A stretch of DNA of 42,572 nt from Verrucomicrobiota bacterium (GTDB lineage: Bacteria > Verrucomicrobiota > Lentisphaeria > JABSQK01 > JAJFLO01). The number at the start of each line of letters is the position of its first letter. Position 1 is the first letter of the stretch. The notes beneath the pieces were generated by a model. The model ran no database searches, was not told where the DNA came from, and was given only the letters and a program-made list of their open reading frames with translations. The position numbers and the translations under genes were made by a program. The stretch lies in NCBI GenBank assembly GCA_021772675.1, contig JAJFLO010000465.1:1-42572 (forward strand), written 5' to 3'. Below, piece after piece: positions 12,323 through 31,240 of this stretch.

Positions 12323-12629
12323 TTTTCATTTCCTTGTTTATTAAATACGTACAAAATTTTTGTTGAGGTTTTAAAAATAAGTCAAGCTCTAACCATTTAA
12401 CTGGTAATATGTTGTTGATCATCGTTTGCAAATATTTCAATGTTGGTCCTAAAAAATAAAGAGCATTATGATAGCCAATACATGTGCCTGTAATTGTAAT
12501 ATTCTATGATTTATTGGTTTATGCATTTTATTACTGCCTTAGTTGGTCTCAAGCAGGTGTAACAAAATTGATAGTGTTGTCGACCGGATTGCCAAGATTG
12601 AAAAAGCCTAAAATAGTTAATGAAATTTA
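12323..12629. other. Intergenic region between two kinases
   Basis: About 300 AT-rich bases upstream of the 667-aa kinase and downstream of the first HisKA_2 kinase. No gene is visible. The part from about 12462 to 12629 is the downstream flank of the 2.6-kb duplicated segment and matches 18216-18383, including a shared tract with GGTGTAACAAA (near 12557) that reads GGTGTGATAAA in the other copy. Confidence 0.5.
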
Positions 12630-15065
12630 TCATGTTTGCCATTCCCTATCGGTATATTTAATTTCGTCAAATTCATTTTCATATCTAAATCCATCGTTAA
12701 AACTAAATTTGGATTTTCCATCCAATTGTTTCGTCAGACCCTGTACAATGCGCAGCCCCAATGAATCAAGTTGGTTAATATCAATTTCTTCAGACATACC
12801 AACTCCATTGTCACCAATACAAAGATGGAATCTGCCTTCATCCCCCATAGACAACTTGACATAGATTTCAGGGTTTTTGTTTGAAATTTGACTAGCGGTA
12901 GGGAACGCATGTTTTAATGAATTGGATACCAGCTCATTAATGATCAGTCCACAGGGAATTGCGGTTTCTATGTTTAGATTGATGTTGTCAATTTCAATTT
13001 TGAAATCGACGGCGATTCCAGGCTGTATTCGGTAAGATTGAGATAGACCTTGTACGAGGCTGTTCCCGTATTCTGAAAAATTTATTTTTCCTAAATCGTC
13101 GGATTTATACAGTTTTTCGTGAATAAGAGCCATGGTTTCAACCCTTGCCTGGCTTTCCATAAATAACCCACGGTAAGTCTCGTCAGTTATTCGGTTTGAC
13201 TGTAGACGAAGCAGGCTTGAAATCACCTGGAGGTTATTTTTCACTCGATGATGGACTTCTTTAAGTAGCATTTCTTTTTCACGAAGTGATTTTCTAATCT
13301 TTTCTTCTCCATCTTTAAGGCTGGTAATGTCGGTAAATGTGCCGACAAAGCCATTTACGTGGTTTGAAATATCACGAGTTACGGTAGCCTGACCTATTAC
13401 CCAACAGTCTTTTCCGGTCGTATTACAAAAACGGAACTGGGATTTGAAATTCACTTGATTTTTTATAGCTGAATTCCATGCCCTTAATACATTTGTCCGA
13501 TCGTCTGCGTGTACAAAACTGATCCACATGTCACTAAAAGAGGAACTGGATTTAGCCCCTAAAATGTGTTTGAACTGAGGATTGGTAAAAATAAACTTTC
13601 CCGATAAATCTGCCTGAAAAATCCCGACGGGTGACTCCTGAGCAAGGGTTTGAAATCGAGCTTCACTTATTTGCAGTGCTGCGACCAAATCTGTCAGTTG
13701 ATCTCGATGTTTAGCCAGTTCTATAGAAAATGTTTCAGCCTTATCTCTTTCTTTGACCAGCTCGTTATCTCGGGATTCAATCTGATCCAACATATAATTA
13801 AATCCATCAATCAGTACACCCATCTCACCTTCGTAATTTCTTTTATCTACCCTAAGTGAATAGTCGTTTTTCTTTGAAATTGTTGTGGTGATATCAGTCA
13901 ACGATACTATGGGGTCGGAAATTATCCGCTGTAACTTTTTGGATAAAAAATATGCTAAAGTGGATGATAAAAGCATAATCACTACAATAGCCAAAATTTG
14001 TTGTCGTATCACCTTATACATACCCACAAGATCTTTTTCGATATAAATCTTACCGATTAATTCTTCCTGTAAGATGATTGGCTTGGCCATTTGAAGGGTA
14101 TTTGAAGTAAAATTGTGACCGTGGTCAATATTCTTTGGGGGAACGTGATTTGTATTCGTTTTTGATAAATACGATGTAAATAACTGCCCTTTTTTATTGT
14201 AAATAGCTGCATATGAAATGGTTGGATCTTCTATTAATTCATTCAAAATCTTTTGGGCGTCTTTTTCTTCCTGGAATTCAAGGGAATAAACAGAGGCATT
14301 TGCTAACATCTTAGCTTGAATAGTAAGATCGAAGGTGATTTGGTCACGTAAGCTAATCATTTGAAAAACCATGAGTGCGATGCCCGCTATTATAAAGGAA
14401 GTCACACAGGTCGTCATTGTTAAAAATGTCAACTTTTGGTTAATTGTATTTAATCGGCTGTACATAGTTTAATAAATCATTTGTCTTTGAATTAAAACTG
14501 GTCGGTTCTGACGACCTATATTTTGCGGAGAATTATGAATGTAATGATTGCATAAAGGTTTCAAAAAATATCGGGTGTTAGTCACGAATCACTTTTCGTG
14601 CGTATCTAAGTAAACGGCTATCGATTTTCAATCCTACATTTTTAATTGAATTTAGATTAACATCAAACCTCAACTTCCCATGTTCTATGAACAAGTAAAT
14701 CATTCCATTGTCTTCTAAAAAGTATTTTCTGTCACTAACTGCTAGTACAGGATGATCTGTTAGTCTTTGGGCAATCTTTCTTGTATTTCTCTTTTCGGAG
14801 TCGGAAATAAATAGCAGTTGACAATCATGTAATTTTTGCCCTTGTTTAAATCGGCCAAAGCGTTTTATGACAACTTTTTTCCCGGCAATTCGGATATCTT
14901 CGACCGGATTGAAATAATTCTCAAATGGATCGTCTCCGACAATTCCAATGCGAATGGTATCATCATTGGTAATTCGTTGAGGCCAACTCACGAACTTCAG
15001 GAAACTTACCAGAAATACCGCTTTTAATTTGTATTCAGGTTGAATTTTTTCTTTGCCGTAAGAGG
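12462..15065 (-). repeat. 2.6-kb duplicated segment, copy 1 (kinase + YfiR-like)
   Basis: This stretch matches 18216-20818 almost base for base. It starts at the shared AGCATTATGATAGCCAA, runs through the whole HisKA_2 kinase, an equal-length 112-bp spacer and most of the yfiR-like gene, and fades in the YfiR signal peptide. By my own count the two kinases differ at about 41 of 611 residues. The receptor genes upstream of each copy do not share this identity. Confidence 0.9.
12630..14465 (-). CDS. Membrane sensor kinase: YfiN-like (CHASE8-type) sensor, HAMP, PAS, HisKA_2
   Basis: This 611-aa protein has TM1 at about 14-37 and a periplasmic domain of about 115 residues: MLANASVYSLEFQEEKDAQK, SYAAIYNKKGQLFTSY, then IILQEELIGKIYIEKDL. 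TM2 lies at about 160-182, followed by HAMP (to about 240), a short coiled coil, PAS (about 270-385, FQTLAQESPVGIFQADLSG) and HisKA_2 (LLKEVHHRVKNNLQVISSLL, HH405-406). The ATPase part has INELVSNSLKHAF, GDNGVGM and SLGLRIV. The periplasmic domain plus HAMP closely follows the plan of YfiN/TpbB (residues LANASVYSLEF against its IARSISYTVEA), the diguanylate cyclase held off by YfiR. Here the GGDEF is replaced by a kinase. It lies 112 bp downstream of a yfiR-like gene, which strongly suggests YfiR is its periplasmic partner. There is a second, near-identical copy at 18384-20219. No cognate receiver is fused to it. Confidence 0.93.
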   Translation of the reverse strand: MYSRLNTINQKLTFLTMTTCVTSFIIAGIALMVFQMISLRDQITFDLTIQAKMLANASVYSLEFQEEKDAQKILNELIEDPTISYAAIYNKKGQLFTSYLSKTNTNHVPPKNIDHGHNFTSNTLQMAKPIILQEELIGKIYIEKDLVGMYKVIRQQILAIVVIMLLSSTLAYFLSKKLQRIISDPIVSLTDITTTISKKNDYSLRVDKRNYEGEMGVLIDGFNYMLDQIESRDNELVKERDKAETFSIELAKHRDQLTDLVAALQISEARFQTLAQESPVGIFQADLSGKFIFTNPQFKHILGAKSSSSFSDMWISFVHADDRTNVLRAWNSAIKNQVNFKSQFRFCNTTGKDCWVIGQATVTRDISNHVNGFVGTFTDITSLKDGEEKIRKSLREKEMLLKEVHHRVKNNLQVISSLLRLQSNRITDETYRGLFMESQARVETMALIHEKLYKSDDLGKINFSEYGNSLVQGLSQSYRIQPGIAVDFKIEIDNINLNIETAIPCGLIINELVSNSLKHAFPTASQISNKNPEIYVKLSMGDEGRFHLCIGDNGVGMSEEIDINQLDSLGLRIVQGLTKQLDGKSKFSFNDGFRYENEFDEIKYTDREWQT

Positions 15066-15180
15066 AAATAGGCAATAAGATCACCAGGAAAAGTAATGAA
15101 TTTATATATTTCATTAACGATTTCTTATATTGGTGTCGTCTATAGTGCAAAATTTGGGTTGTCAGATTTTTATTTAACAT
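14578..15180 (-). CDS. yfiR-like: YfiR-like periplasmic regulator (DUF4154 family)
   Basis: This 200-aa protein has a long N-region, then a hydrophobic signal core (YINSLLFLVILLPISSYG). The mature part carries the family pattern: YKLKAVFLVSFLKFVSWP, RIGIVGDDPFENYF, IAGKKVVIKRF, CQLLFISDSE, then DRKYFLEDNGMIYLFIEHGK, LRFDVNLNSIKNVGLKID and SRLLRYARKV. In Pseudomonas, YfiR binds and represses the periplasmic domain of YfiN. Only one Cys remains in the mature part, so the disulfides that control P. aeruginosa YfiR are absent. The ATG at 15180 is favoured over the internal Met23, because the paralogue at 20332 conserves the same long N-region but not that Met. The gene lies between a TonB receptor and the YfiN-like kinase, and probably reports receptor state to the kinase. 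Confidence 0.88.
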   Translation of the reverse strand: MLNKNLTTQILHYRRHQYKKSLMKYINSLLFLVILLPISSYGKEKIQPEYKLKAVFLVSFLKFVSWPQRITNDDTIRIGIVGDDPFENYFNPVEDIRIAGKKVVIKRFGRFKQGQKLHDCQLLFISDSEKRNTRKIAQRLTDHPVLAVSDRKYFLEDNGMIYLFIEHGKLRFDVNLNSIKNVGLKIDSRLLRYARKVIRD

Positions 15181-15353
15181 TTTTTACTTCAAAAAAAAGA
15201 TATTTCCTATTCAGGTTCAGCTTTGTGGCAGAACGATAAAGGAATCACTTATCTCTTAAGTTAACGGCATTGGAATGTCACCGAATATTCAGGGACTGGG
15301 GTATTAAACCTCGAGCTTCGCAATAAATTTGTTTTCACAATTTTCATCTCGCT

Positions 15354-17276
15354 TTAAAACTTCATCGCAACTTTCACATACACCGCCCGGCCGGAGCGAG
15401 ATTGTATGGCGTTCACCAGTGCTGGACTTGGTGGTTGTGATCCTGATATTTTTTCATCTAACAAATTGAAGCCGTAGATAGAGAAATCGACACCCTCGGG
15501 TATGAATGGAATAAAATGATTTACCTCAAAGATGAGATTGATGGTCAGTAGGTGGTAGCTATCAGGGTTGGGGTTAGTTGACGCTGTTACTGCATGTGTC
15601 GACGAGCTGCCTACATAACGGTCAAACACATCTAAACTGATACCATCCCATCCGGTATAGGTAAACCCTGCCTTGGCTATCCAGTTAGGCGTAGCAAATA
15701 CGTCCTGCACACCAGTTGCACCTTCACTTTCCTGATAGCTGTATGACCCCCGAATTTTCCAATGGGCATTGATAGTAGCCTCACCTTCCAGCGTGAGACC
15801 AAGTGCATCGATATCACTACCATTGATATAGTTAATGCCATTTATATCAAATAATGTACCGATGGTATTTTCATGGTGGCTATCGAACAATGTCAGCGCT
15901 CCAAAATAGCTTGTATTGCGATAGGTAATCTGTGCGTCAATCGTACTGACTTTCTCTGGTATTAGGTCAGGATCACCAACAACAAGACCGGGGGCATTGA
16001 TAAATTGCTCGGTTGGATAGGGCGAGCGAAAGGCTTCTCCATAAAGCAATTTACCTCCCCAATTCTCATTAAATTGCATGGTTGCTCCTACGCGTGGTGA
16101 AAAATCCCCCTTCGCACCCTCGGAATCATTAAACTGCACGCCGGCCACTAGTTTTAACCGGCCTATCGGCGTATAATCCATTTGCGCGTATGCACCGAGA
16201 CGTGTGGAATCCCAATTTAGTACATTCAGTAAATCATCCCCGATAAGCCGCTGGTATGTACCGCCTGCCATCAGGTTCACATTTTTCGATAATTTTCCAT
16301 CCAGTGACAGCTCACCCAACCAATCATTACCATCAAGACGCACAATCTGTGTATAGCGTTGCTTCCACCCGGTATGCGCACCATTGATTTTAAGTGTCCA
16401 ATCATCCGAAATGTTGTGGGTATAGCCTAAGTCAATCATGCGTTGCTTAAACCAGCTATCTTGAAACGGGAATGCATTGGGCACCTGAATTTGATCTTGT
16501 GCAAGGTAGCCTTTCATCACATTTAAGGTGAAGCCTTTATAATCCGCATTTAATACGAAATTTGCGTTAGTATCCGCGCGTTTATCTGAGCCAAAGGCAC
16601 CGGCAATGTCATTCCCTGAGACTTTAAAACCATCGCTTTCTCTAAGCAAAAAGGCAGAGGAAACATTGTAGTCTTCTCCAGCAGAGCCAGCGTAATATTC
16701 TGTGCCGCGGGAGTTGAAGCTTCCATAACTAATAGATGCCTGGCTTTCTAGTTTTTCTTGTGCTTTTTGGGTGATGACATTCACTACACCGCTATAGGCA
16801 TTTGAGCCGTAAAGCACCGAGCCAGGTCCACGTATCACCTCTACACGCTCAACAATGCTCAAGGGTAACGTGCGTAGCGGTATAAAATCAATTGAACCAC
16901 TAACGCCCTCACGGACAGGACGGCCGTTTAATAATATCAAGGTATGATAATTACCACTAGTAGGAGAATCACCGCGAATGCCAATGGAATGCTCACCAAA
17001 ATGTGCGTTATGTTGACCGAACACGCCCGGCATCCGCTCCAACGCTTCCATCAAAGTACGTGCACCGGATGCACGAATTTCGTTCCGGGTCAGCACATTA
17101 ACTACGCTCGGAGCATCGGAGATTTCCTCAGAGCGTTTCGAGGCCACTGTTATGGTCAGAAGCTGCTTCAAATCCATTGCCCAAAGCTTATCCTGCTCCG
17201 GGTCTGCATCCTGCGCCAGAGCAGGCGCGGCGGATAAACATACCAATATCGCGGTGGCTAATAATAATTTTTTCAT
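15354..17276 (-). CDS. TonB-dependent outer-membrane receptor 1
   Basis: This 640-aa protein has a signal peptide (MKKLLLATAILVCLSAAPALA) and a short N-terminal tail with a TonB-box-like LLTITVASKR. The plug domain spans about 55-170: VVNVLTRNEIRASGARTL, IRGDSPTSGNYHTLILLNGR, VERVEVIRGPGSVLYGSNAY, SGVVNVIT. The 22-strand barrel closes with VKVAMKF, a terminal Phe as the Bam complex expects. There is no STN domain, so it is not a FecA-type transducer. AAAAGGAGAGAG directly precedes the ATG. It is first in a TBDR - YfiR - kinase operon. The substrate cannot be deduced; the family includes siderophore, heme, vitamin and metal receptors. It is only moderately similar to receptor 2, although their downstream partners are near-identical. 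Confidence 0.93.
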   Translation of the reverse strand: MKKLLLATAILVCLSAAPALAQDADPEQDKLWAMDLKQLLTITVASKRSEEISDAPSVVNVLTRNEIRASGARTLMEALERMPGVFGQHNAHFGEHSIGIRGDSPTSGNYHTLILLNGRPVREGVSGSIDFIPLRTLPLSIVERVEVIRGPGSVLYGSNAYSGVVNVITQKAQEKLESQASISYGSFNSRGTEYYAGSAGEDYNVSSAFLLRESDGFKVSGNDIAGAFGSDKRADTNANFVLNADYKGFTLNVMKGYLAQDQIQVPNAFPFQDSWFKQRMIDLGYTHNISDDWTLKINGAHTGWKQRYTQIVRLDGNDWLGELSLDGKLSKNVNLMAGGTYQRLIGDDLLNVLNWDSTRLGAYAQMDYTPIGRLKLVAGVQFNDSEGAKGDFSPRVGATMQFNENWGGKLLYGEAFRSPYPTEQFINAPGLVVGDPDLIPEKVSTIDAQITYRNTSYFGALTLFDSHHENTIGTLFDINGINYINGSDIDALGLTLEGEATINAHWKIRGSYSYQESEGATGVQDVFATPNWIAKAGFTYTGWDGISLDVFDRYVGSSSTHAVTASTNPNPDSYHLLTINLIFEVNHFIPFIPEGVDFSIYGFNLLDEKISGSQPPSPALVNAIQSRSGRAVYVKVAMKF

Positions 17277-17463: not shown

Positions 17464-17712
17464 TTACGTCATAATCATAAAGATTTCAGGTACATACACC
17501 GCCCGGCCGGAGCGGATGGTGTTCAGATTGCTGCGCGCCAATTCCGGGAAGTGCACGTCCTCATCCAGCAAATTATCAACATAGATTGAAAAAGTAGTGT
17601 TGGACATCCGCGACCTCCTTGTGACTTCCTTCATATCAATATTGATTTTGACTGTCAGCCAGTTGTACGCTTCGGCATAGGGATTTAACCCGCATTTCTC
17701 ACAAGAAAACTC
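17464..17712 (-). pseudogene. TonB-dependent receptor C-terminal remnant
   Basis: The minus strand reads NPYAEAYNWLTVKINIDMKE, then FSIYVDNLLDEDVHFPELAR and NTIRSGRAVYVPE before a stop. This is the last 70 or so residues of a TBDR barrel, matching receptor 3 (DAYNWLTFKASLNL, LYGENLLNEDVHFPEL, GGRAVYFTVKLKF). The final strand is garbled after GRAVYV, and everything upstream is missing. It lies between the two duplicated modules, so it probably marks a third receptor lost during the duplication or by recombination. Its codons are GC-richer than its surroundings. Confidence 0.8.
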
Positions 17713-17836: not shown

Positions 17837-17944
17837 GTTTGTAGTCCCGTCTTTAGGCGGAAGTTTTAACGACGCTTCAGCGAGTGCTACTTTTGACTCG
17901 CTAAAGCTCATCTGAGGCTTCCGTCTAAAGACGGGACTACAAAC
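17837..17944. repeat. 108-bp palindromic element with nested stem
   Basis: The arms 17837-17863 and 17918-17944 are 27-bp inverted repeats with one mismatch; the outer part reads TTTGTAGTCCCGTCTTTAG. Between them lies a second stem, GCTTCAGCGAGT (17874-17885) against ACTCGCTAAAGC (17896-17907), with one mismatch. The nested cruciform shape and its intergenic position suggest a small dispersed repeat (MITE or REP-like). No second copy occurs in this window. Confidence 0.75.
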
Positions 17945-18215
17945 CTTACCCCGTCCGAGTTTTTCGTTGATTTGATTGTATAAACACTTGTATTTTGAGT
18001 TACAATTGATGTGAGACAAAAGCTCCGGCATAGCCGGTTAAGTTCATCGACTATCCTCCTCGTACAGTTAGTACGATTGTGGGATTCAACCATCGCAACA
18101 CCCGAAACTAAAACCTAATAAAATGTTTCACAACGATTTCTTGTGAGAAATAGGGGTTAATACGAACACACCCGGTTTAAACTCTTCATGTTTGTCCGTA
18201 TCTGAAAAATGTAAT

Positions 18216-20818
18216 AGCATTATGATAGCCAACACATGCGTATATTTATGTAATATGCTATTGTTTAATTGTTTGCGAATTTTATAATTGCCTTTATTTA
18301 TTTCAGGTGGGTGTGATAAAATTGACAGTGTTGTCAACCAGATTGCCAAAATTGAATAAGCCTAAAGTAGCTAATGAAATTTATCATGTTTGCCATTCCC
18401 TATCGGTATATTTAATTTCGTCAAATTCGTTATCATATTTAAATCCATCATTAAAACTAAATTTGGATTTTCCATCCAATTGTTTCGTCAGGCCTTGTAC
18501 AATGCGCAGCCCCAATGAATCAAGATGATTAATATCTATTTCTTCAGACATACCAACTCCATTGTCACCAATACAAAGATGGAATCTGCCTTCATCCCCC
18601 ATAGACAACTTGACATAGATTTCAGGTTTTGTGTCTGAAATTTGACTAGCGGTAGGGAACGCATGTTTTAATGAATTGGATATCAGCTCATTAATGATCA
18701 GTCCACAGGGAATTGCGGTTTCTATGTTTAGATTGATATTGTCGATCTCAATTTTGAAATCAACGGCGATTCCAGGCTGTATCCGATAAGATTGAGATAG
18801 ACCCTGTATGAGGCTGTTCCCGTATTCAGAAAAATCTATTCTTCCAAGATCATTGGATTTATATAGCTTTTCGTGAATAAGAGCCATGGTTTCAACCCTT
18901 GCCTGGCTTTCCATAAATAACCCACGGTAAGTCTCGTCAGTTATTCGGTTTGACTGTAGACGAAGCAGGCTTGAAATCACCTGTAGATTATTTTTCACTC
19001 GATGATGAACCTCTTTAAGTAGCATTTCCTTTTCACGAAGTGATTTTCTAATCTTTTCTTCTCCATCTTTAAGGCCGGTAATGTCGGTAAATGTGCCGAC
19101 AAAGCCATTTACCTGGTTTGAAATATCACGAGTTACGGCGGCCTGTCCTATTACCCAACAGTCTTTTCCTGTCGTACTACAAAAACGGAACTGGGATTTG
19201 AAATTTACTTGATTTTTTATAGCTGTATTCCACGCTTTCAATACGTGTGTCCGATCGTCTGCGTGTAAAAAACTGATCCACATGTCACTAAAAGAGGAAC
19301 TGGATTTAGTCCCTAAAATATGTTTGAACTGAGGATTGATAAAAATAAACTTTCCCGATAAATCTGCCTGAAAAATCCCGACGGGTGACTCCTGAGCAAG
19401 GGTTTGAAATCGGGCTTCACTTATTTGCAGCGCTGCGACCAAATCTGCCAGTTGATCTCGATGTTTAGCCAGTTCTATAGAAATTTTTTCAGCCTTATCT
19501 CTTTCTTTAACCAGGTCGCCATCTCTGGATTCAATCTGATCCAACATATAATTAAATCCATCAATCAATACACCCATCTCACCTTCGTAATTTCTTTTAT
19601 CTACCCTAAGTGAATAGTCGTTTTTCTTTGAAATTGTTGTGGTAATATCAGTCAACGATAATATGGGGCCGGAAATTATCGGCTGTAACTTTTTGGATAA
19701 AAAATATGCTAAAGTGGATGATAAAAGCATAATCACTACAATAGCCAAAATTTGTTGTCGTATCACCTTATACATACCCATAAGATCTTTTTCGATATAA
19801 ATCTTACCGATTAATTCTTCCTGTAAGATAATTGGCTGAACCATTTGAAGGGAATTTGAAGTAAAACTGTGACCGTGGTCAATATTCTTTGGGGGAATGT
19901 GATTTGTATTCGTTTTTGATAAATACGACGTAAATAACTGCCATTTTTTATTGTAAATTGCTGCATATGAAATAGTTGGATCTTCTTTTAATTCATTCAA
20001 AATCTTTTGGGCGTCTTTTTCTTCCTGGAATTCAAGGGAATAAACAGAGGCATTTGCTAACATTTTAGCTTGAATAGTAAGATCGAAGGTGATTTGGTCA
20101 CGTAAGTTAATCATTTGAAAAACCATGAGTGCGATGCCCGCTATTATAAAGGAAGTCACACAGGTCGTCATTGTTAAAAATGTCAACTTTTGGTTAATTG
20201 TATGTAATCGGCTGTACATAGTTTAATAACTCATTTGTCTTTGAATTAAAACCGGTCGGTTCTGATGACCTATATTTTGCGGAGAATTATGAATGAAATG
20301 ATTGCATATAGGTTTCAAAAAATATCGGGTGTTATTCACGAATAACTTTTCGTGCGTATCTAAGTAAACGGCTATCGATTTTCAATCCTACATTTCTAAT
20401 TGAATTTAAATTAACATCAAACTTTAACTTCCCATGTTCTATGAATAAGTAAATCATTCCATCGTCTTCTAAAAAGTATTTTCTATCACTAACTGTTAGT
20501 GCAGGATGATCTGTTAGTCTTTGGGCAATCTTTCTTGTATTTCTCTTTTCGGAATCGGAAATGAATAGCAGTTGACAATCATGTAATTTTTGCCCCTGCC
20601 TTAATCGACCAAAGCGTTCTATCACAACTTTTTTTCCAGCAATTCGGATACCTTCGACCGGATTGAAATAATTCTCAAATGGATCGTCTCCGACAATTCC
20701 AATGCGAATAGTATCATTATTGGTGATTCGTTGAGGCCAACTCACAAACTTCAAAAAACTTACCAGAAAGGCAGCTTTTATTTCATATTCCGGACGAATT
20801 CTTTCTTTGCTGTACGAT
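18216..20818 (-). repeat. 2.6-kb duplicated segment, copy 2 (kinase + YfiR-like)
   Basis: This is the partner of 12462-15065, in the same orientation about 5.75 kb away. Gene order and spacing inside (kinase, 112 bp, yfiR-like) are identical. Homology starts at AGCATTATGATAGCCAA and fades inside the YfiR signal peptide, so the receptor genes are outside it. Confidence 0.9.
18384..20219 (-). CDS. Membrane sensor kinase: YfiN-like sensor, HAMP, PAS, HisKA_2 (copy 2)
   Basis: This 611-aa protein is a near-identical paralogue of the kinase at 12630-14465, about 93% by my count, with every motif kept: CHASE8-like periplasmic domain, HAMP, PAS, EVHHRVKNNLQ and GDNGVGM. Differences are spread over the protein but slightly denser in the periplasmic and linker parts (for example KKGQLF to KKWQLF, QMAKPI to QMVQPI, KLQRIISDPI to KLQPIISGPI). 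The HisKA_2 core is unchanged over about 60 residues. Both copies look intact, so both are probably functional. The periplasmic changes could tune pairing with each copy's own YfiR. Confidence 0.93.
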   Translation of the reverse strand: MYSRLHTINQKLTFLTMTTCVTSFIIAGIALMVFQMINLRDQITFDLTIQAKMLANASVYSLEFQEEKDAQKILNELKEDPTISYAAIYNKKWQLFTSYLSKTNTNHIPPKNIDHGHSFTSNSLQMVQPIILQEELIGKIYIEKDLMGMYKVIRQQILAIVVIMLLSSTLAYFLSKKLQPIISGPILSLTDITTTISKKNDYSLRVDKRNYEGEMGVLIDGFNYMLDQIESRDGDLVKERDKAEKISIELAKHRDQLADLVAALQISEARFQTLAQESPVGIFQADLSGKFIFINPQFKHILGTKSSSSFSDMWISFLHADDRTHVLKAWNTAIKNQVNFKSQFRFCSTTGKDCWVIGQAAVTRDISNQVNGFVGTFTDITGLKDGEEKIRKSLREKEMLLKEVHHRVKNNLQVISSLLRLQSNRITDETYRGLFMESQARVETMALIHEKLYKSNDLGRIDFSEYGNSLIQGLSQSYRIQPGIAVDFKIEIDNINLNIETAIPCGLIINELISNSLKHAFPTASQISDTKPEIYVKLSMGDEGRFHLCIGDNGVGMSEEIDINHLDSLGLRIVQGLTKQLDGKSKFSFNDGFKYDNEFDEIKYTDREWQT

Positions 20819-20934
20819 GGAATTGGAGACATTGTGGCCAGGCAGAATACCAGAATTGCAAATCGTTTTAGCCAATTTTGGTATTGATCTCGTTTAGGAT
20901 GAAAAATGTTGTTGATGAGAGTATCCTTAATCAT
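20332..20934 (-). CDS. yfiR-like: YfiR-like periplasmic regulator (copy 2)
   Basis: This 200-aa paralogue of the protein at 14578-15180 has the same length and nearly the same mature sequence (AAFLVSFLKFVSWPQRI, IRIGIVGDDPFENYF, DRKYFLEDDGMIYLFIEHGK, LKIDSRLLRYARKVIRE). The first 45 residues differ much more, including a different signal core (FAILVFCLATMSPIPSYS). The homology of the duplicated segment therefore ends in the signal peptide. It lies between receptor 2 and kinase copy 2, separated from the receptor by 401 bp that contains a palindromic element. Like copy 1 it has only one Cys in the mature part. Confidence 0.88.
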   Translation of the reverse strand: MIKDTLINNIFHPKRDQYQNWLKRFAILVFCLATMSPIPSYSKERIRPEYEIKAAFLVSFLKFVSWPQRITNNDTIRIGIVGDDPFENYFNPVEGIRIAGKKVVIERFGRLRQGQKLHDCQLLFISDSEKRNTRKIAQRLTDHPALTVSDRKYFLEDDGMIYLFIEHGKLKFDVNLNSIRNVGLKIDSRLLRYARKVIRE

Positions 20935-20978
20935 TTTTATATTTGAAAGTTGAGGTAATGTGTACTTTCCCCATCTAA

Positions 20979-21158
20979 GGAACTTGGAAAAAATAAATCA
21001 TCCCATTTTGGCGCTTATCTTCATGCTGCATTTGACTGCGCCTCAATCGTAAAATCCTCGAAATAGGCATCTTATTTCTGTGGTTTTACTCAATCGTCAC
21101 AGCCAAATCTAACACAAATCTATGGACAATCTGAGACAATTAATTTTTTCCAAGTTCC
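20979..21158. repeat. 180-bp palindromic element between receptor 2 and its yfiR-like gene
   Basis: The terminal inverted repeats are 20 bp: GGAACTTGGAAAAAATAAAT (20979-20998) against the complement of 21139-21158, with one mismatch. Inside is a hairpin at about 21049-21089 (GTAAAA...TTTTAC outer, GAAATA...TATTTC inner), flanked by 9-bp direct repeats CTCAATCGT (21042-21050 and 21089-21097). It has no coding capacity. The equivalent gap in module 1 (15181-15353) lacks it, so it looks inserted after the modules were formed. It could act as a processing or attenuation site inside the operon. Confidence 0.7.
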
Positions 21159-21335
21159 TAATTCAATACTAGTCGCAAAATCAATGCCGCTTTTTCCTTT
21201 GATTTTGCATGTAAATAATTCTGTAACATTGAGTTAATATTCGAGCATATCTATTACATAGAGTCGTTTAACTTTGTTAGGCGACACAAGATCATCAAAG
21301 CTGTAATATGGAAGTTTCGTTTTCTATACATCGAT

Positions 21336-23297
21336 TTATATATTTATTTTTAATACTAGATAGAAAGCTCTACCGGAGTGTTGAGGGATCGATCGTGTTG
21401 ACTTGCTATTAAAATCCGGAAAGTTGATTTCTTCGTCAAGTAGATTGTCCCCATAAATCGTCAATGTAGCGTCTGGTAGCGTATTTTTACGCAGTAAAGT
21501 TGGAATGTGTAAATTCATATTAAATGTAAGTAGATGGTAGGGGTCTGGCTTGGGATTTAAGCCAGATGCAGCCGGATTAACATCTTGTACTGACGTCGGA
21601 TTACCAAAGTAAGAGTCAAACAGGCCCATAGAAAACCCTTTGCCAACGTCATAAGAAACACCAAGTTTAGCCATCCAGTTTGGCGTAAAGGTGACATCAT
21701 CCACACCATTCTGATTTTTATTCGTCTGCCAACTAACAGAGCCGGATAGGCTCAAGCCATCCGTTAGCCTGGTTTTCCCTTCCAACTCCACACCTTGAGA
21801 AGTGATCTCTCCTAAATTTACCCATTCAAAGAAAGCAGGTCCCGTACTGGGAACAAATGTAATGATATCAGATATTTCGCTATAAAAGTAGGATAATCCA
21901 AAATAGGTATCAAGGGTTCTATAAAAAATTTGAGCTTCAGCCGTTTCAATAATTTCAGGTTTGAGATCTGGGTTAGCTGAAATGAATGCGTTTTGGAAAA
22001 AATTTTCAGCTCCAAATGGAGCTCGAAATGCTTCACCATAGCCGATTTTTAGACCCCAATATTGATCAAGGTTAACTATTGCCGAAAGTCTTGGGGAAAA
22101 ATTTTGCTTAACCCCCGTGGGTTTGTTCCATTGCATGCCCCCGATTAATTTCACGCAATCGGAAAGTTGATAGTCTATCTGATTGTAGGCACTATACCAC
22201 TGTGTATGAAAACCAATATCGTTAAGTAAGCCGTTATGCCATTCAAGTACCCCTCCGAAGGTTGTGTTCAATTTGTCACTAATTTTTCCCCTTAAAGTAA
22301 ATTCAGCATGCAGATCATTTGTAGAATTGTTGTCTGTACCCTGTAGCGTACGAAGTCCGTTATGAGTGATATTTGTCTCACCCTGCCAAATATCGTTAAT
22401 TTTAAGTATATACTCGGAATTAATTATCCAGCGTTTGAAGTCTGAATTTGATTTTCCAGAAGCAGAAGCAGAGTTAAAATTTGCGATCTCATCCTCTCCA
22501 TAAAAAGCACTCAAAGTCAAATTGTTTCGGTGTGCCATTGCGAATACCCCCATGGTCTCATTATCTCGGTCAAAGTATCCATTTATAGTCCCGCCACCTG
22601 ATGGTTGGCTATAACGAAAGCGCCAGCCCTTTGAATCTAGATGTGTAAATGCCACGAGTGATTCCCAATCGTCCCCGTATGCAGCAATCGTAGCATTTCC
22701 TACCTTTGTATTAAATGATCCATAACTTCCTGATAAACTGAGTGGTTGTAAGTCGCGGGCAGTTTTTGTGACAATATTTATAACTCCGGCAAATGCATTG
22801 CTACCGTAAAGTACCGAACCTGGGCCTCGGATAAACTCAATTCGCTCAATTATGTCAATTGGGAAACCTTGAAGCAGAGGTGAGTTGCTTCCGCCGTTAA
22901 GGCTATCGCGAAAGGGTTTGCCATTGATTAGGTAAAGGATATGGTTATCAAATTGGAACGTTGATTGACCCCGCAAAAAAACGGACATTTGAGGTGCATA
23001 ATTGGAAGCGACAGATTGAAAACTGGTGGCTCGATTCAAAACATCGCGCAGATTACGTCCACCAAATTGTTTAATCTCCTCAGCAGTAATCACGGCGACA
23101 ATGCCGGGTGCGTCTTCAAGTCTTTCAATACGTTTAGACGCCACCGAGATCTGCATAAGTTGATTTAAATCTAAATCAAAAACATTGTCGGTTTGGTGAC
23201 TTTGAGATAATGTTGATGATGTTATAGCTGAAATCAGTAATAAAAGTATCCCAAATCTGAAGTGTTTCGAATGAATCAATTTCCTACGATTTTTCAT
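21336..23297 (-). CDS. TonB-dependent outer-membrane receptor 2
   Basis: This 653-aa protein has an N-terminal signal sequence (FGILLLLISAITSSTLSQS) and a TonB-box-like LNQLMQISVASKR. The plug spans about 65-185: VAVITAEEIKQFGGRNLRD, VFLRGQSTFQFDNHILYLIN, IERIEFIRGPGSVLYGSNAF, AGVINIVT. The barrel ends with FYLVLKINI, ending in Ile rather than the usual Phe. There is no STN domain. The Shine-Dalgarno AAAGGAGAT is excellent. It heads the second TBDR - YfiR - kinase module. It is clearly diverged from receptor 1 in the extracellular loops and most strands, so the modules probably respond to different substrates while using the same downstream machinery. Confidence 0.93.
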   Translation of the reverse strand: MKNRRKLIHSKHFRFGILLLLISAITSSTLSQSHQTDNVFDLDLNQLMQISVASKRIERLEDAPGIVAVITAEEIKQFGGRNLRDVLNRATSFQSVASNYAPQMSVFLRGQSTFQFDNHILYLINGKPFRDSLNGGSNSPLLQGFPIDIIERIEFIRGPGSVLYGSNAFAGVINIVTKTARDLQPLSLSGSYGSFNTKVGNATIAAYGDDWESLVAFTHLDSKGWRFRYSQPSGGGTINGYFDRDNETMGVFAMAHRNNLTLSAFYGEDEIANFNSASASGKSNSDFKRWIINSEYILKINDIWQGETNITHNGLRTLQGTDNNSTNDLHAEFTLRGKISDKLNTTFGGVLEWHNGLLNDIGFHTQWYSAYNQIDYQLSDCVKLIGGMQWNKPTGVKQNFSPRLSAIVNLDQYWGLKIGYGEAFRAPFGAENFFQNAFISANPDLKPEIIETAEAQIFYRTLDTYFGLSYFYSEISDIITFVPSTGPAFFEWVNLGEITSQGVELEGKTRLTDGLSLSGSVSWQTNKNQNGVDDVTFTPNWMAKLGVSYDVGKGFSMGLFDSYFGNPTSVQDVNPAASGLNPKPDPYHLLTFNMNLHIPTLLRKNTLPDATLTIYGDNLLDEEINFPDFNSKSTRSIPQHSGRAFYLVLKINI

Positions 23298-23476: not shown

Positions 23477-23896
23477 TCAAGATTTCGTTACTATGTTTTC
23501 AAGATAGTGACAAACGGTCTCCAGCAGGTCATACATATCAAATGGCTTTTCCAGAAGTTTGTCAAATCCGATATTAGTGCAACGTTTTGCCGTATGTTTA
23601 TTATCACCCCCAGTGATTCCTATAATCGGCGTCATTCTAAAGTCTGGATGGAGTCTTAATCGTCTCGTTGCTTCATATCCATTCATCACTGGCATATCCA
23701 GATCCATAATAATTACTTCCGGTTGAAATAGTTCCGCTCGCTCAAGTGCTTCCAGACCGTTATTCGCCGTCTTTGTATTTAGATTATCTGCTTCAAGCAA
23801 ACTTGTTATTAATGATCGGATTGACTCATTATCATCGACGACCAATATTCGCCGATTTTCGATAGTGACCGCAGATTGGCATACTTCATTATTCAT
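23477..23896 (-). CDS. Single-domain response regulator (CheY-like receiver)
   Basis: This 139-aa protein has a short N-tail followed by one receiver domain: RILVVDDNESIRSLI, phosphorylatable D65 in IIMDLDMPVMNGYEATRRL, Thr of IGITGG in switch position, and K in LLEKPF. There is no output domain. It lies about 180 bp upstream of receptor 2 in the same direction and is a plausible phosphate acceptor for the orphan HisKA_2 kinases. It resembles the C-terminal receivers of the hybrid kinases in this window (MNGYEATRRLR), so it could also be a phosphorelay intermediate. Confidence 0.93.
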   Translation of the reverse strand: MNNEVCQSAVTIENRRILVVDDNESIRSLITSLLEADNLNTKTANNGLEALERAELFQPEVIIMDLDMPVMNGYEATRRLRLHPDFRMTPIIGITGGDNKHTAKRCTNIGFDKLLEKPFDMYDLLETVCHYLENIVTKS

Positions 23897-25643: not shown

Positions 25644-27578
25644 ATGCCAAAAGGGATTCCAATATATATAATAATGCTGATGTGCGGTATTATTTTGTGT
25701 CTCAATCAACCCAGTATCGCAGCAACAGATAATGTCGAGCCGACAAATTTGTTCACGCTGGATATTGAAAGTTTGATGCATGTTAAGGTATCGGTAGCGT
25801 CTAAACGCGATGAGAATATCTACGACGCACCCGGAGTTGTTAGTGTAATGACGGACACGGATATCGAACGCTTCGGAGCGAATAGTTTGTCCGACGTTAT
25901 TGCACGCTTCCCCAATGTTTATAAGTGGGGATCGGAAGTCTTTCGTAATAATACCACCTCCATTCGAGGTCAAACATTGACACATGTCGATAATACCGTG
26001 CTGCTACTGCTCAATGGCCGCCCGATGCGCGAAAGTTTTGGCGGGGGTTTGAATCTTGCCATTTACGAATCGTTTCCTGTGGAAGCGATCAAGCGTATCG
26101 AGATGATCCGTGGACCTGGATCCGTGTTGTACGGCTCCAATGCATTCTCGGGCGTCATTAACATAATTACCAAATCACCAGCAGACGGGGGTGAAAATTA
26201 TCAAGTAAGCTCTAGTTATGGTTCATTTAATACACAGGCATATCAGGTTGCGATGACGAAGCAGATTGGTGAGGTCGGTACCGTTTTCTCTCTCTCCTCA
26301 CGCAATGAGGATGGTTGGAATTTTGCATTTACGGATGCCGCAGGAAACCATGGCGAGGAAAAACACGGCAATGACACGCATGGCGTTTTTATTCAATCAA
26401 AATATAAGGGGCTGACCCTAACTGGATTTGTCGGCTACTCACGGTACGATGAACTGGATACAGGTATGACACTTCCAGCATCGCAGCGACTGCACCAACG
26501 TCATTTTGTTGATGCACAATACGAACATCAACTCAGTGAGCGTTGGGGAACGACACTTAATCTTACCTTCAACAACTGGGAATCACAAAATAGTGAAGAT
26601 GCCACTGACGGCTTATTCGAGATTAGCTTTAATGGTCAATTGACGGACGACATTGAGCTCGTTACCGGTGCCAGTATAGACCACCATAATTCAACTGTAA
26701 CTGACGCTTCTACATCAAGACTTTCTACGAGTTATTATCTACAGGGAGAATATAGGGTATTAAATTGGTTGACGTTAGTTGGCGGATTGCAACTAAATAA
26801 ACCGGATGATATTGATCTCGATCTTTCACCGCGGCTGGGCACTATCATACGATTCAATGAAAACTGGCGTGCAAAATTGCTTTACGGAGAGGCTTTTCGC
26901 TCTCCCTATTCCCTGGAAACATCTATTTCTGTCCCTGGAATCTTAGTCGGATCAAGCGATTTAGAGGCCGAGACGATTTCTACCTTCGATGCGCAGTTAC
27001 TCTACAATAACCATGATTATTCTAGTGCCTTGACCTTTTATCAGAGTAAACAGAAAGATACGATTGTCCGCTCCGGTGCCCGTCCGGCAACGTTTATCAA
27101 CGGTGGAGAAGTAAACTATTGGGGCATTGAATGGGAAGGCAGAATTCAACTTGGCTCACATTGGGATATACAGGGATCACTGACCTATCAGGCAGGTGAG
27201 GATGAGGCTGACAACGAGGATGTTGGACTGGTGCCACATTATATGGCGAAAATAGGTGTTTCGTATAACTCTGGTAAGGGTTACCAAATTGGTGTGTTTA
27301 ATTCTTACTTTTCTGATGCCGCTCAGATTGAAGATATTAGTAACGCGGCTGTGGTCAACTCGACAGCCGATGCCTATAACTGGTTAACCTTTAAAGCGTC
27401 GCTGAATTTGCGAGATTTTACCGGCAATAGCACCCTGCCAGATATCGATTTTGATCTATACGGCGAGAATTTGCTGAATGAAGACGTGCATTTTCCTGAA
27501 TTGATACGCAAGCAGATCAACACCGTTCCCCTTCATGGAGGGCGGGCGGTCTATTTTACTGTAAAATTGAAATTCTAG
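25644..27578 (+). CDS. TonB-dependent outer-membrane receptor 3
   Basis: This 644-aa protein has a signal peptide (about 1-27, IIMLMCGIILCLNQPSIA) and a TonB-box-like MHVKVSVASKR. The plug spans about 60-175: VVSVMTDTDIERFGANSL, SIRGQTLTHVDNTVLLLLNG, IKRIEMIRGPGSVLYGSNAF, SGVINIIT. The barrel ends in FTVKLKF. There is no STN domain. It is the only receptor on the plus strand and has no yfiR-like gene beside it; its neighbour is a convergent NtrC/NtrB-like pair. Its codon use looks a little GC-richer than the surrounding DNA, and the C-terminal remnant at 17464-17712 resembles it more than receptors 1 or 2 (shared DEDVHFPEL and AYNWLT), suggesting a shared recent origin. Confidence 0.93.
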   Translation: MPKGIPIYIIMLMCGIILCLNQPSIAATDNVEPTNLFTLDIESLMHVKVSVASKRDENIYDAPGVVSVMTDTDIERFGANSLSDVIARFPNVYKWGSEVFRNNTTSIRGQTLTHVDNTVLLLLNGRPMRESFGGGLNLAIYESFPVEAIKRIEMIRGPGSVLYGSNAFSGVINIITKSPADGGENYQVSSSYGSFNTQAYQVAMTKQIGEVGTVFSLSSRNEDGWNFAFTDAAGNHGEEKHGNDTHGVFIQSKYKGLTLTGFVGYSRYDELDTGMTLPASQRLHQRHFVDAQYEHQLSERWGTTLNLTFNNWESQNSEDATDGLFEISFNGQLTDDIELVTGASIDHHNSTVTDASTSRLSTSYYLQGEYRVLNWLTLVGGLQLNKPDDIDLDLSPRLGTIIRFNENWRAKLLYGEAFRSPYSLETSISVPGILVGSSDLEAETISTFDAQLLYNNHDYSSALTFYQSKQKDTIVRSGARPATFINGGEVNYWGIEWEGRIQLGSHWDIQGSLTYQAGEDEADNEDVGLVPHYMAKIGVSYNSGKGYQIGVFNSYFSDAAQIEDISNAAVVNSTADAYNWLTFKASLNLRDFTGNSTLPDIDFDLYGENLLNEDVHFPELIRKQINTVPLHGGRAVYFTVKLKF

Positions 27579-27812: not shown

Positions 27813-29228
27813 TTATTCTTCTGTAGATTTCAGACGTCGGCTTAATGCTGGTCGGGAAATTCCCAGATATCGAGAGGCAATTGTTTGATTACCTTGCGCG
27901 CGCTTCATTGCCTCAGCGATTAATGCTTGAGTTGCGCACCGAATTGAGGGTAGCTCCTCTAGTTCCGAGAATAGTGAATTCCCCTCCGAAGCTATCGGTG
28001 TCTCTGGTCCGAATGCATCTGTATTTTGACCCATTCGGTGTTTAAACACCTTCATGGAAAGCATTCCAGAATCATGGCGGCTCACCGCGTCGAAAACAAT
28101 TGCCTCAAATTCACGTATATTGCCCAGAAACGGATAGTTGTTCAATAAAATCAACAATTCCTTTGGGTACGAAGGCTTCTCCTTATTTAGTGTGTCTGCG
28201 GCGATTTGAAGGAAGTGATCCAGCAGGAGTGGGAGGTCATCTAAACGCTGGCGTAACGGGGGGATTTTAAAATAATGGGTTGATATTCGGTAGAAAAGAT
28301 CCCTTCTGAATGCTCCGGAATTCTGTTGTTGGTCGAGGTCCTGGTTGGTTGCAACCAAAATACGAATATTTGATTTTTTATTCACATCCGCACCAAGGGG
28401 TAGGTATTCACGTTCTTGAATAACTCGCAGTAATTTAATCTGTGAGTTATGATTTAAGTCACCGATTTCATCAAGAAATAATGTGCCCCCAGCTGCTTTT
28501 TCGATTAACCCGCTTCTAACGCTTTCGGCACCAGTAAAGGCGCCTTTAAGGTGACCAAACAACGTGTCTGAGAATGCGTTATCGTCTAGGCCGGCAACAT
28601 TTACCGATACAAAGGGGCCTGACAGCTCACTAAGTTTGTGGATTGCCCGGGCAAACAATTCTTTCCCAACCCCCGTCTCACCTGTAATCAAGATAGGTTG
28701 GGGACTATTGGCAATAGCTTCGATATATTTAAAAATGGACCTCATTCCAGAGTTTGCCGTTATTATCTTAGCAAACGCTTCTGGGTGTTCTACTTTGGTC
28801 GACATTAAGTTCTGTCGAATCGATCTGTTTTCATCACGCAGTTCCTGAATTTCGATCGCTCGTTTTACAGTTGATATTAGGCGATTTGTCTCCACTGGCT
28901 TTACGACATAGTCAAAGGCGCCATTCTTCATACATCCTACAGCCGTTTCGAGTCGGTTCTGTCCAGTAATTACAATTACAGAAATACTTGGAAATTCTTG
29001 CGAAATTTGTTTTAACAACTCGTCACCTGTTATATAAGGCATTGTTAAATCCAGTAGAATTACAGCAGCATTTGTTTTGGCAATTGATGCCATTGCCTTG
29101 CGGCTGTCGGAACACAAAATGACATGATCTAGCCCCACAGATAGAAGCACCATTTTTATTGTTTCCAGAGCGTCGGTTTCATCGTCAACGAGTAAAATAG
29201 GTAGCTTAGGATATTTTAAGGATTTCAT
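27813..29228 (-). CDS. NtrC-family sigma-54-dependent response regulator
   Basis: This 471-aa protein has an N-terminal receiver (ILLVDDETDALETI, D60 in ILLDLTMPYITG, K in YVVKPV). The AAA+ domain follows, with Walker A GETGVGKE, the sigma-54 contact loop GAFTGA, Walker B GGTLFLDEIGD and the arginine-finger region FRRDLFYRI. A C-terminal Fis-type helix-turn-helix reads NQTIASRYLGISRPALSRRL. It activates RNA polymerase with sigma-54 at enhancer sites after phosphorylation. Its start overlaps the stop of the upstream kinase as ATGA (29228-29225), so that kinase is almost certainly the partner. I did not find a convincing GG-N10-GC sigma-54 promoter in the nearby upstream regions, so the target genes are open; receptor 3 is the obvious candidate. 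Confidence 0.95.
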   Translation of the reverse strand: MKSLKYPKLPILLVDDETDALETIKMVLLSVGLDHVILCSDSRKAMASIAKTNAAVILLDLTMPYITGDELLKQISQEFPSISVIVITGQNRLETAVGCMKNGAFDYVVKPVETNRLISTVKRAIEIQELRDENRSIRQNLMSTKVEHPEAFAKIITANSGMRSIFKYIEAIANSPQPILITGETGVGKELFARAIHKLSELSGPFVSVNVAGLDDNAFSDTLFGHLKGAFTGAESVRSGLIEKAAGGTLFLDEIGDLNHNSQIKLLRVIQEREYLPLGADVNKKSNIRILVATNQDLDQQQNSGAFRRDLFYRISTHYFKIPPLRQRLDDLPLLLDHFLQIAADTLNKEKPSYPKELLILLNNYPFLGNIREFEAIVFDAVSRHDSGMLSMKVFKHRMGQNTDAFGPETPIASEGNSLFSELEELPSIRCATQALIAEAMKRAQGNQTIASRYLGISRPALSRRLKSTEE

Positions 29229-31240
29229 TTTTTATTTTTCCCATTGCATAAGGGGATGGCGACCTGGGCATCTGTTCCGATTCCCAACTCAGATTGAAGA
29301 GATAAGGAACCTCCATGTTCATTGATAATAGTTGTCGATATGCTCAGTCCTAAACCAGTCCCTCCCAAATCACGTTTAGTTGTAAAGAATGGATCAAATA
29401 CCCGATTTAGGTTTTTCTGGGAAATACCGCAGCCTTCGTCCTTAATATTTACTATGATAAGGTTATTTCTTTGATCATATTGAGAGGAAATAAAGATGCC
29501 TTTTTGAATGTCAGGCAGCGCTTGGCAGGCATTTTGTAACAAATTGACAAATACTTGTTCTAGTCGTTGATAACTCCCATGAAGTATAGGGATATCTTTA
29601 CCCATATTTAATTGTAGCTTTATTGTCGATTTTTTAATCATGTTTGAGAGTAATGCTGTTACCGAATTGATAACAGCATTAATATCTACCGGTTCAGGGG
29701 AATAATTCCGTTCTTCATAAGCAAAACCTCTGAGTTCAGAAACTATGGAAGCAATTCGAACTGAACCGGATTGTATACGTGAAATGATATCTGGCATCTG
29801 CTTTTTGAGATAGGAAAAACTTAGGCCACCCACAATGAAGTCGCCATTTTTATTTGAATATGTTTGAAGAATAGGAGTAATTCCATCCCAGATTCGTTGA
29901 ATTAAACAAATATTAGACATTATATTATGATTTGGATTATTAATTTCGTGGGCAACTCCGGAAACCAGAATTCCCAGAGATGTCATCTTATCAGCTTGAA
30001 CAAGTTGTTTTTGACGGATACGGCTCATTTTTTCAACTTCTTTTCTTTCGGTAATATCTCTGGTAATTCCACGGTAACCATATAATTGACATTCAGAATC
30101 AATAATCGGCACACCGCTAGTTTCAAGAGCAACCTCATGTCCATTCTTGTGCTGGCATCTAAATTCCAATCCTGCAAAGGGTTTATTACTTTGGATGAAG
30201 CTTGAAAATAACGTTTGAAACCGTTTGGCTTCCTCCATTTCCATAAAGTCAAATTGACTTTTTTGGATTACCTCTTCAGGTTTGTATCCGATGATGTCCA
30301 TTACTTTAGGACTTGAGTAAACAAAGACTCCCTCATGACTAATTTCCCATACCCAGTCGCTCGTCGTTTCTACCAGTGATCGAAATCGATGTTCGCTTTC
30401 GGAAAGTTCCTGAGTTCGCTCTTCAATGGTTTTTTCCAGGTTGGCTTGTAATTCTGTCAGTTGGGCAGCGGTCTTTTTTTTCTCGGTGACGTCGAGAAAA
30501 GTGAGAACGCCACCAACAACCTGTTGATTCTTGAATATTGGCGAGGATCGACATTCAGCCTGAAAATTCTTACCATCGGCTTTCCACATGATCTCGTCCT
30601 CACTATGAATTGTCGTTTGATTGAGTAGTATAGAATTTATTCGACTATTGTGTTTGGGGTGAGCGTCTTCAGTCGGAAGGGGAGGGCGTACAAGCATTTC
30701 CACGTTTTGACCTAAAAGTTGCTTTTTGTCATCATAACCTAGTAACGTTAAGCAGGATTGGTTGCAAAATGTACATTTACCGTCCACATCAAACCCATAA
30801 ATTCCTTCTGCCGTAGAATTTAATAAGAGTTTTATTTGTTCTTCACTTTCCTTAAGCCGATTTTCATAACGATGGGTAACTAACGCAATTTCTATTGTCG
30901 TTCGCAACGAGGTTTCTGTAAATGGTTTTGTAATGTATGCATATGGCTGGGTCTTTAAGGCTCGGGTTATGGTTGCAGTATCAGAGTGAGAGGTGAGGTA
31001 AACTACAGGGATATTATGTTCTTTTCGGATTACCTCTGCTGTTTCTATTCCATCATTATCGCCTCTGAGAACAATGTCCATCAATACCAGATCCGGGCGT
31101 ATTACCGTTATTAATTCCAACGCTCTTTTCCCGGACGACGTCGGTTCCGGAACTTCGTAACCAATTTCTTCCAATTGGTTTTGAATGTTCATGGCAACCA
31201 GAGCTTCGTCTTCCACAATTAGGACTTTTGCAGCGTTCAC
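29225..31240 (-). CDS. Cytoplasmic receiver-PAS-PAS sensor kinase of the NtrB type
   Basis: This 671-aa protein has a receiver (VLIVEDEALVAMNI, D55 in LMDIVLRGDNDG), PAS1 (about 140-265, LLLNSTAEGIYGFDVDGKC), a coiled coil, and PAS2 (about 285-410, FRSLVETTSDWVWEISHEG to GITRDITERK). An NtrB-like HisKA carries H431 (LVSGVAHEINNPNHNI), followed by HATPase_c with LLQNACQAL, DEGCGI, FDPFFTTK and GTGLGL. There is no membrane segment, so it senses an internal signal or is fed through its receiver. The start is GTG, with AAGGA 8 bases before; no ATG exists in frame there. It is translationally coupled to the NtrC-type regulator. Its receiver-PAS front is paralogous to the 667-aa hybrid at 10319-12322. 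Confidence 0.94.
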   Translation of the reverse strand: MNAAKVLIVEDEALVAMNIQNQLEEIGYEVPEPTSSGKRALELITVIRPDLVLMDIVLRGDNDGIETAEVIRKEHNIPVVYLTSHSDTATITRALKTQPYAYITKPFTETSLRTTIEIALVTHRYENRLKESEEQIKLLLNSTAEGIYGFDVDGKCTFCNQSCLTLLGYDDKKQLLGQNVEMLVRPPLPTEDAHPKHNSRINSILLNQTTIHSEDEIMWKADGKNFQAECRSSPIFKNQQVVGGVLTFLDVTEKKKTAAQLTELQANLEKTIEERTQELSESEHRFRSLVETTSDWVWEISHEGVFVYSSPKVMDIIGYKPEEVIQKSQFDFMEMEEAKRFQTLFSSFIQSNKPFAGLEFRCQHKNGHEVALETSGVPIIDSECQLYGYRGITRDITERKEVEKMSRIRQKQLVQADKMTSLGILVSGVAHEINNPNHNIMSNICLIQRIWDGITPILQTYSNKNGDFIVGGLSFSYLKKQMPDIISRIQSGSVRIASIVSELRGFAYEERNYSPEPVDINAVINSVTALLSNMIKKSTIKLQLNMGKDIPILHGSYQRLEQVFVNLLQNACQALPDIQKGIFISSQYDQRNNLIIVNIKDEGCGISQKNLNRVFDPFFTTKRDLGGTGLGLSISTTIINEHGGSLSLQSELGIGTDAQVAIPLCNGKNKK

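Follow-up and report, generated by a model that had tools for sequence, protein, structure and literature searches.

How might a TonB-dependent receptor (TBDR) that carries no STN domain pass a signal from the outer membrane to the cytoplasm? To our knowledge, TonB receptor signalling is known mainly through STN/FecR/sigma systems, and the question is raised by a 42,572-nucleotide stretch of DNA from a Verrucomicrobiota bacterium (contig JAJFLO010000465.1), which was analysed over its full length and is called the window below. An earlier note, made from the letters of this DNA, had described a receptor gene followed by a yfiR-like gene and a gene for a kinase with a YfiN-like sensor region, and had proposed that the three form a signalling module like YfiBNR, except that a TBDR stands where YfiB would be and a kinase takes over from the GGDEF domain.

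Two receptor-YfiR-kinase sets in the window

The open reading frames of the first set lie exactly at 12630-17276 on the minus strand in the order TBDR, YfiR, kinase, as the earlier note had it (Table 1). Pfam found only Plug and the TonB barrel in the receptor; no STN match appeared up to E = 1, and Plug begins at residue 52, in agreement with its description as STN-less. In the kinase, CHASE8 (1.8e-11; 44.6 bits, cut-off 27), PAS_3, HisKA_2 (2.1e-29) and HATPase_c were recovered above the Pfam cut-offs and the H, N and G boxes are intact, but the HAMP domain that had also been described scored 20.8 bits, under its cut-off of 25. The sensor region proved related to YfiN by profile: in addition to the CHASE8 match, residues 6-263 matched the DgcN/YfiN model NF007423 with an E value of 7.4e-27, under the family cut-off.

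The earlier description of the locus was correct for this set but incomplete, as it had overlooked a second set, a receptor relic and eight other DUF4154 genes. The second set, TBDR2-YfiR2-HK2 (18384-23297, minus strand), lies upstream of the first on the same strand. In each set the kinase and the mature portion of YfiR belong to a 2.6-kb duplication. The similarity breaks off sharply within the yfiR gene: 54 of the 92 nucleotide differences between YfiR1 and YfiR2 fall in the first 45 codons. The codons of HK1 and HK2 show 40 synonymous and 39 non-synonymous differences out of 612. Judging from these sequences, we read the duplication and the relic as probable receptor turnover in front of a retained YfiR-kinase pair; the alternative is gene conversion of the kinase block. 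The two copies suggest that a single YfiR-kinase pair has been combined with several receptors.

Table 1. Features of the two sets and their surroundings, in window coordinates.
Feature	Position	Strand	Evidence
TBDR1, TonB-dependent receptor, 640 aa, no STN	15354-17276	-	Pfam Plug 1.4e-22, barrel 2.7e-30; falls in YfiR-linked receptor clade
N-terminal periplasmic motif of TBDR1, residues 29-46, DKLWAMDLKQLLTITVAS	17139-17192	-	Weak: 6.9 bits (same receptor, locus L125); held-out model <5 bits; recognisable by eye
YfiR1, YfiR/HmsC-like periplasmic protein (DUF4154), 200 aa	14578-15180	-	Pfam 1.9e-38; NF053591 115.7 bits (cut-off 125)
HK1, CHASE8-HAMP-PAS-HisKA_2-HATPase sensor kinase, 611 aa	12630-14465	-	Pfam; NF053592 198.1 bits (cut-off 194)
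CHASE8 periplasmic domain of HK1	14040-14348	-	Pfam
YSLEF of HK1, residues 60-64, aligned with the YfiN AAVVF YfiR-binding motif; Phe kept	14274-14288	-	CHASE8 alignment
TBDR2, receptor of second copy, 653 aa, 35% identical to TBDR1	21336-23297	-	ORF, Pfam, pairwise comparison
N-terminal periplasmic motif of TBDR2, residues 38-54, NVFDLDLNQLMQISVAS	23136-23186	-	7.9 bits (same receptor, locus L124)
YfiR2, 78% identical to YfiR1	20332-20934	-	Pfam, pairwise comparison; divergence mostly in first 45 codons
HK2, CHASE8-PAS-HisKA_2 kinase, 94% identical to HK1	18384-20219	-	Pfam; NF053592 196.3 bits (cut-off 194)
Duplicated block, copy 1 (kinase and mature YfiR)	12449-15067	-	93.5% DNA identity to 18202-20822
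Duplicated block, copy 2	18202-20822	-	93.5% DNA identity to 12449-15067
Relic of a third receptor, C-terminal TBDR piece, between HK2 and TBDR1	~17464-17694	-	tblastn 1e-17 to receptor 25644-27578, 8e-13 to TBDR2
Single-domain response regulator, 139 aa, 180 bp upstream of TBDR2, candidate phosphoacceptor	23477-23896	-	Response_reg 1.7e-26

In a genome of the same family (G002, loci L029 and L030) a receiver gene likewise lies near, directly behind the kinase. Elsewhere in the window, a third TBDR on the opposite strand (25644-27578, plus) has no adjoining yfiR and carries the same kind of N-terminal motif, TNLFTLDIESLMHVKVSVA, at 9.2 bits; it clusters with the YfiR-linked receptors and may feed the same YfiR in trans. 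Adjoining it are a PAS kinase and a sigma-54 response regulator (27813-31240, minus), a possible downstream or parallel pathway. Between the two sets, at 17837-17944, lies an imperfect, MITE-like inverted repeat; members of a MITE-like repeat family are scattered further on, in both orientations, at 31376-31543, 32998-33175 and 33875-34080.

The assembly surveyed (7.3 Mb, 86% complete, 605 contigs) contains a TonB gene, ten DUF4154 places, eight of these genes lying outside the window, and eight CHASE8 places, the two kinds mostly on shared contigs. Seven of the eight stand-alone YfiRs lie directly behind a TBDR, and the eighth (L014) comes after a 369-aa protein whose match to a barrel family is weak (Phenol_MetA_deg, 21.9 bits, cut-off 22). 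The remaining two YfiRs form part of hybrid kinases, and one of these fusions is encoded immediately after a TBDR. Such fusions, with YfiR at the N-terminus of the hybrid kinase, were seen at L016:6108-9335, where a TBDR lies directly upstream, at L017:1011-3806 and at L037-L039.

Gene order in other genomes and known systems

The earlier note had called for a search for the same order outside this genome and had named its absence there as a refutation; the search clearly spoke against such an absence. The triad recurs in at least ten phyla, a recurrence that argues against a chance arrangement, and this confirmed that the module is a real, widespread and conserved TBDR-YfiR-CHASE8 signalling unit. 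The main counts come from loci sampled by Pfam model, and so not chosen for their receptors, in Verrucomicrobiota, Desulfobacterota and Proteobacteria. In these loci a TBDR lies directly upstream of a stand-alone YfiR in 39/61 cases and within three genes in 50/61, and a CHASE8 gene follows YfiR directly in 59/64. The figures for Verrucomicrobiota are 20/29 (TBDR directly upstream) and 25/29 (CHASE8 directly downstream); those for Desulfobacterota and Proteobacteria are 19/32 and 34/35, with eight further loci in which the TBDR lies one or two genes downstream. A GTDB scan added 80 loci from Acidobacteria, Nitrospirae, Planctomycetes, Bacteroidota, KSB1, Ignavibacteriae, Myxococcota and others; its query was two TBDR-linked YfiRs, which biases it towards linked loci, and the summary counts were therefore taken from the Pfam-sampled genomes. 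Gaps of 30 bp or less separate TBDR and YfiR in 81/101 cases, with a recurring 13-bp overlap, and YfiR and CHASE8 genes in 124/135, with a recurring 4-bp overlap, a spacing that is operon-like. The full triad is also present in a cultured, annotated example, on plasmid pSRL1 of Sphingobium indicum B90A (SIDU_RS18035-18045).

The output behind CHASE8 varies: we found hybrid and plain kinases (HisKA), HisKA_2 (the window and L060), GGDEF (seven loci) and chemoreceptor/MCP domains (L110 and L118). The HisKA_2 output is one among several interchangeable outputs and not the core of the system. Incomplete sets also occur, with YfiR-CHASE8 kinase pairs lacking a nearby receptor in genomes of the same class (L031-L035) and TBDR-YfiR pairs lacking an adjoining CHASE8 gene at L011, L027, L112 and L115, where YfiR may act on a kinase encoded elsewhere in the genome. 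At L101:6498-7583 a VWA-OmpA protein, reminiscent of YfiB, lies upstream of a YfiR that has no adjoining CHASE8 gene. On a plasmid of Pseudoalteromonas sp. HL-AS1 (L250), YfiR is followed by a CHASE8-GGDEF gene and the upstream receptor is broken up, with an IS30 transposase gene between it and YfiR. An apparent TBDR-YfiR fusion at L088 was rejected as an assembly gap (a run of N), and apparent YfiR fusions at L073 and L110 were set aside as well, their length probably being due to over-long ORF calls.

The likeness to YfiBNR that had been proposed holds for gene order, domains and contact residues, but two features that define YfiBNR are missing. As in the TpbB system of Pseudomonas aeruginosa and YfiR-DgcN-YfiB of E. 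coli, YfiR is encoded directly upstream of a CHASE8-HAMP protein, an outer-membrane partner is encoded alongside, and the AAxxF patch and YfiR F162/N165/L181 are largely kept; the window itself has a DUF4154 YfiR and a YfiN-type CHASE8 and HAMP, the latter below its cut-off. In those systems, however, the partner is the OmpA-like lipoprotein YfiB instead of a TBDR, the output is GGDEF instead of PAS-HisKA_2-HATPase, and Pseudomonas YfiR has a Cys145-Cys152 pair that is mostly absent here. We would accordingly describe the module, by analogy and from two shared components, as a variant of YfiBNR and not a member.

The novelty of a kinase output behind YfiR had been overstated. Divergent YfiNR cores with histidine kinase, HPT, GGDEF-EAL and MCP outputs, mostly without YfiB, were reported by Malone in 2012 (PMC3375315). 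These systems share the YfiR-YfiN core and the exchanged output with ours, and Desulfobacterium autotrophicum, used in that work, has a relative here (L100) with the module order; a term search of the paper found no mention of TonB receptors, and the systems are treated there as lacking an outer-membrane partner. NCBIfam models exist for the same three components: NF053590 (TOL_0244 TBDR), NF053591 (TOL_0243 YfiR-like) and NF053592 ("sensor histidine kinase, YfiR-like protein-associated"). Both window kinases pass NF053592; both YfiRs fall short of NF053591 (115.7 and 113.1 bits, cut-off 125), as do both receptors of NF053590 (106.1 and 119.3 bits, cut-off 645). TOL_0244 of Thalassolituus oleivorans, the founder of NF053590, is up sevenfold on long-chain alkane (PMC6304351, PMC9788540). 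OmpS of Alcanivorax dieselolei is reported to be an alkane sensor that triggers chemotaxis (PMC6304351, PMC5174103, PMC9788540). For both TBDRs a role at the start of alkane sensing and chemotaxis has been reported or proposed, although their similarity is only 40%.

The module also stands apart from FecA-FecR-FecI, as had been claimed. Like that system it would use a TBDR as outer-membrane sensor and carry a periplasmic message to the inner membrane, but the receptor here has no STN, and neither a FecR nor a sigma factor gene lies within the module: FecR matches fell only on other contigs (two FecR proteins in the genome), and a Pfam scan of the neighbouring window proteins found no sigma factor. 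Searches of the accessible literature for TBDRs with YfiR or CHASE8 returned no paper on the triad, and none on the mechanism of the three NCBIfam components came to light.

YfiR contact residues and a shared receptor motif

In YfiN, the AAVVF patch, and in YfiR, a hydrophobic surface that includes F162, L166, I169 and L181, are proposed or crystallographic contacts (PMC3375315, PMC4655355, PMC4887326). The Phe of AAVVF is kept in 131/134 CHASE8 domains and both Ala residues in about 76%, with AA replaced by YS in the window kinase. Of 154 YfiRs, 120 have F162, 138 have N165 and 133 have L181; I169 is mostly Ala, with Ile in the window. By these alignments the YfiR/YfiN interaction residues are largely retained. 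Complex models, obtained by reading through the stop between adjacent genes, gave good folds and no readable interface; judged by their overall scores, they speak neither for nor against one. The YfiR-CHASE8 model had a pTM of 0.52 with the relative placement not fixed, and the TBDR-YfiR model (L047), on overall scores only, reached a pLDDT of 87.3 and a pTM of 0.81, with 65-73 in the motif region.

In the receptor tree, one branch (support 66) sets apart the full group of 112 YfiR-linked receptors together with 10/53 unlinked ones, and the next branch holds the 112 with 11 unlinked (support 94). The linked/unlinked label changes 10 times on the tree, compared with 37-51 times in 200 shuffles. 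Linked receptors share a motif, approximately DLTxLSLEELMNIEVTS, between signal peptide and plug and directly before a TonB-box-like stretch. A motif profile built from 38 receptors of the GTDB-scan loci was applied to other genomes at a threshold of 5 bits, after the unlinked set had been cleaned of copies of linked receptors. It recovered 39/54 held-out linked receptors and 7/59 unlinked ones (Fisher p 5e-11). Four of these seven lie beside a YfiR module and one (L221) is actually linked, leaving L234 and L247 as truly unlinked; low-scoring linked receptors, TBDR1 among them, have a weaker version of the motif by eye. E. coli YfiB does not match the profile, and for this reason we do not claim homology between the motif and the YfiB arm. 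The shared motif is the new part of the system, and we have not seen it described elsewhere.

Outside TBDRs, matches of at least 3 bits were few among 6765 ORFs: a linked receptor missed by our labelling (L223), a YfiR protein (L099, 6.8 bits), one match at noise level, and three proteins encoded upstream of YfiR where the locus has no TBDR. The first of these three is the L014 protein (9.3 bits), which is plug-less and barrel-like. The others, L084:3369-5051 (8.1 bits) and L084:5531-7159 (3.3 bits), have cadherin/RTX repeats and lie behind ABC and HlyD (type I secretion) genes, and one of them has two motif copies by eye. By the precedent of retained type I adhesins such as LapA, proteins of the L084 type would have a periplasmic N-terminus. 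It is mainly because of these non-TBDR carriers (three proteins, two loci) that we take the motif to be a likely YfiR contact. Motif and receptor clade are confounded by descent, and only the same three cases, one of them at 3.3 bits, break this.

A putative relay and its alternatives

The reading we put forward, on which our own confidence is evenly balanced, is a trans-envelope relay of the YfiBNR type in which a TBDR replaces YfiB and a HisKA_2 kinase replaces GGDEF. YfiR would rest against the AAxxF patch in CHASE8 and keep the kinase in one state. Binding of ligand, perhaps with pulling by TonB, would make the short N-terminal motif next to the receptor's TonB box more or less accessible, and the motif would then take YfiR off the kinase by filling the hydrophobic surface that the YfiB N-terminal arm uses in Pseudomonas. 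Kinase activity would change, and a receiver, possibly the one at 23477-23896, would pass the signal on; the contact, the direction of control and the ligand are the conjectural parts. Gene order, tight spacing, the YfiR-hybrid kinase fusions, the contact residues, the receptor clade, the motif and the TonB gene argue for such a relay. We count against it the complex models with no readable interface, the shared descent of motif and receptor clade, the weak motif of TBDR1, the change from AA to YS in the window, the prevalence of Ala at I169 and the incomplete sets at some loci.

The motif could also be nothing but part of the TonB-box region of one TBDR subfamily that lies beside yfiR by chance, with no signalling role. 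Its position before a TonB-box-like stretch and the single clade of linked receptors would both follow from that, yet the plug-less L014 protein and the L084 RTX/cadherin proteins carry it upstream of YfiR without a TonB box, and we think this explanation somewhat unlikely. The same carriers bear on a different route, in which the receptor imports a ligand and the ligand-loaded periplasmic YfiR controls the CHASE8 kinase, making contact between receptor and YfiR unnecessary. The control of LuxQ by LuxP is a parallel. A receptor without STN would suit this route, and in Foldseek the YfiR model hits substrate-binding proteins (5z6v, E 6.8e-6; 3lft) besides YfiR crystal structures (E 2.7e-9); in Pseudomonas YfiR, moreover, the YfiB pocket is a weak binding site for vitamin B6 and Trp (PMC4887326). 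It leaves unexplained, however, why the receptors have a common N-terminal motif and why adhesin-like proteins and non-TBDR barrels that take the receptor's place carry it too, and by inspection most other YfiR loci have no adjoining ABC importer. We regard it as unlikely.

The receptor might instead be a mere uptake gene under the control of a kinase that senses alone via YfiR and CHASE8, responding to redox conditions or the state of the envelope, a role suggested for YfiR in Pseudomonas. Kinases often adjoin the genes they control, and the receptor-less pairs of L031-L035 would fit this arrangement. We nevertheless consider co-regulation alone distinctly improbable: across many phyla the partner is nearly always one TBDR clade though the outputs switch, GGDEF and chemoreceptor outputs exert no direct transcriptional control, and the Cys145-Cys152 pair of Pseudomonas YfiR is missing from most YfiRs.

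Returning to the relay, a broader version can be offered tentatively, and we think it rather more doubtful than not. The motif may be a transferable YfiR-docking peptide, such that any outer-membrane or surface-retained carrier, whether a TBDR, another barrel or a type I-secreted adhesin, would signal via YfiR to exchangeable kinase, cyclase or chemoreceptor outputs. The motif is also a peptide open to direct testing. If the triad works as we infer, STN-less receptors in many phyla would be sensors that act on phosphorelays, cyclic-di-GMP and chemotaxis, among other outputs, and they would provide a signal source for many YfiR systems without YfiB. If the docking-peptide reading is also true, Gram-negative bacteria would have in it a general means of sensing what state their outer-membrane proteins are in.
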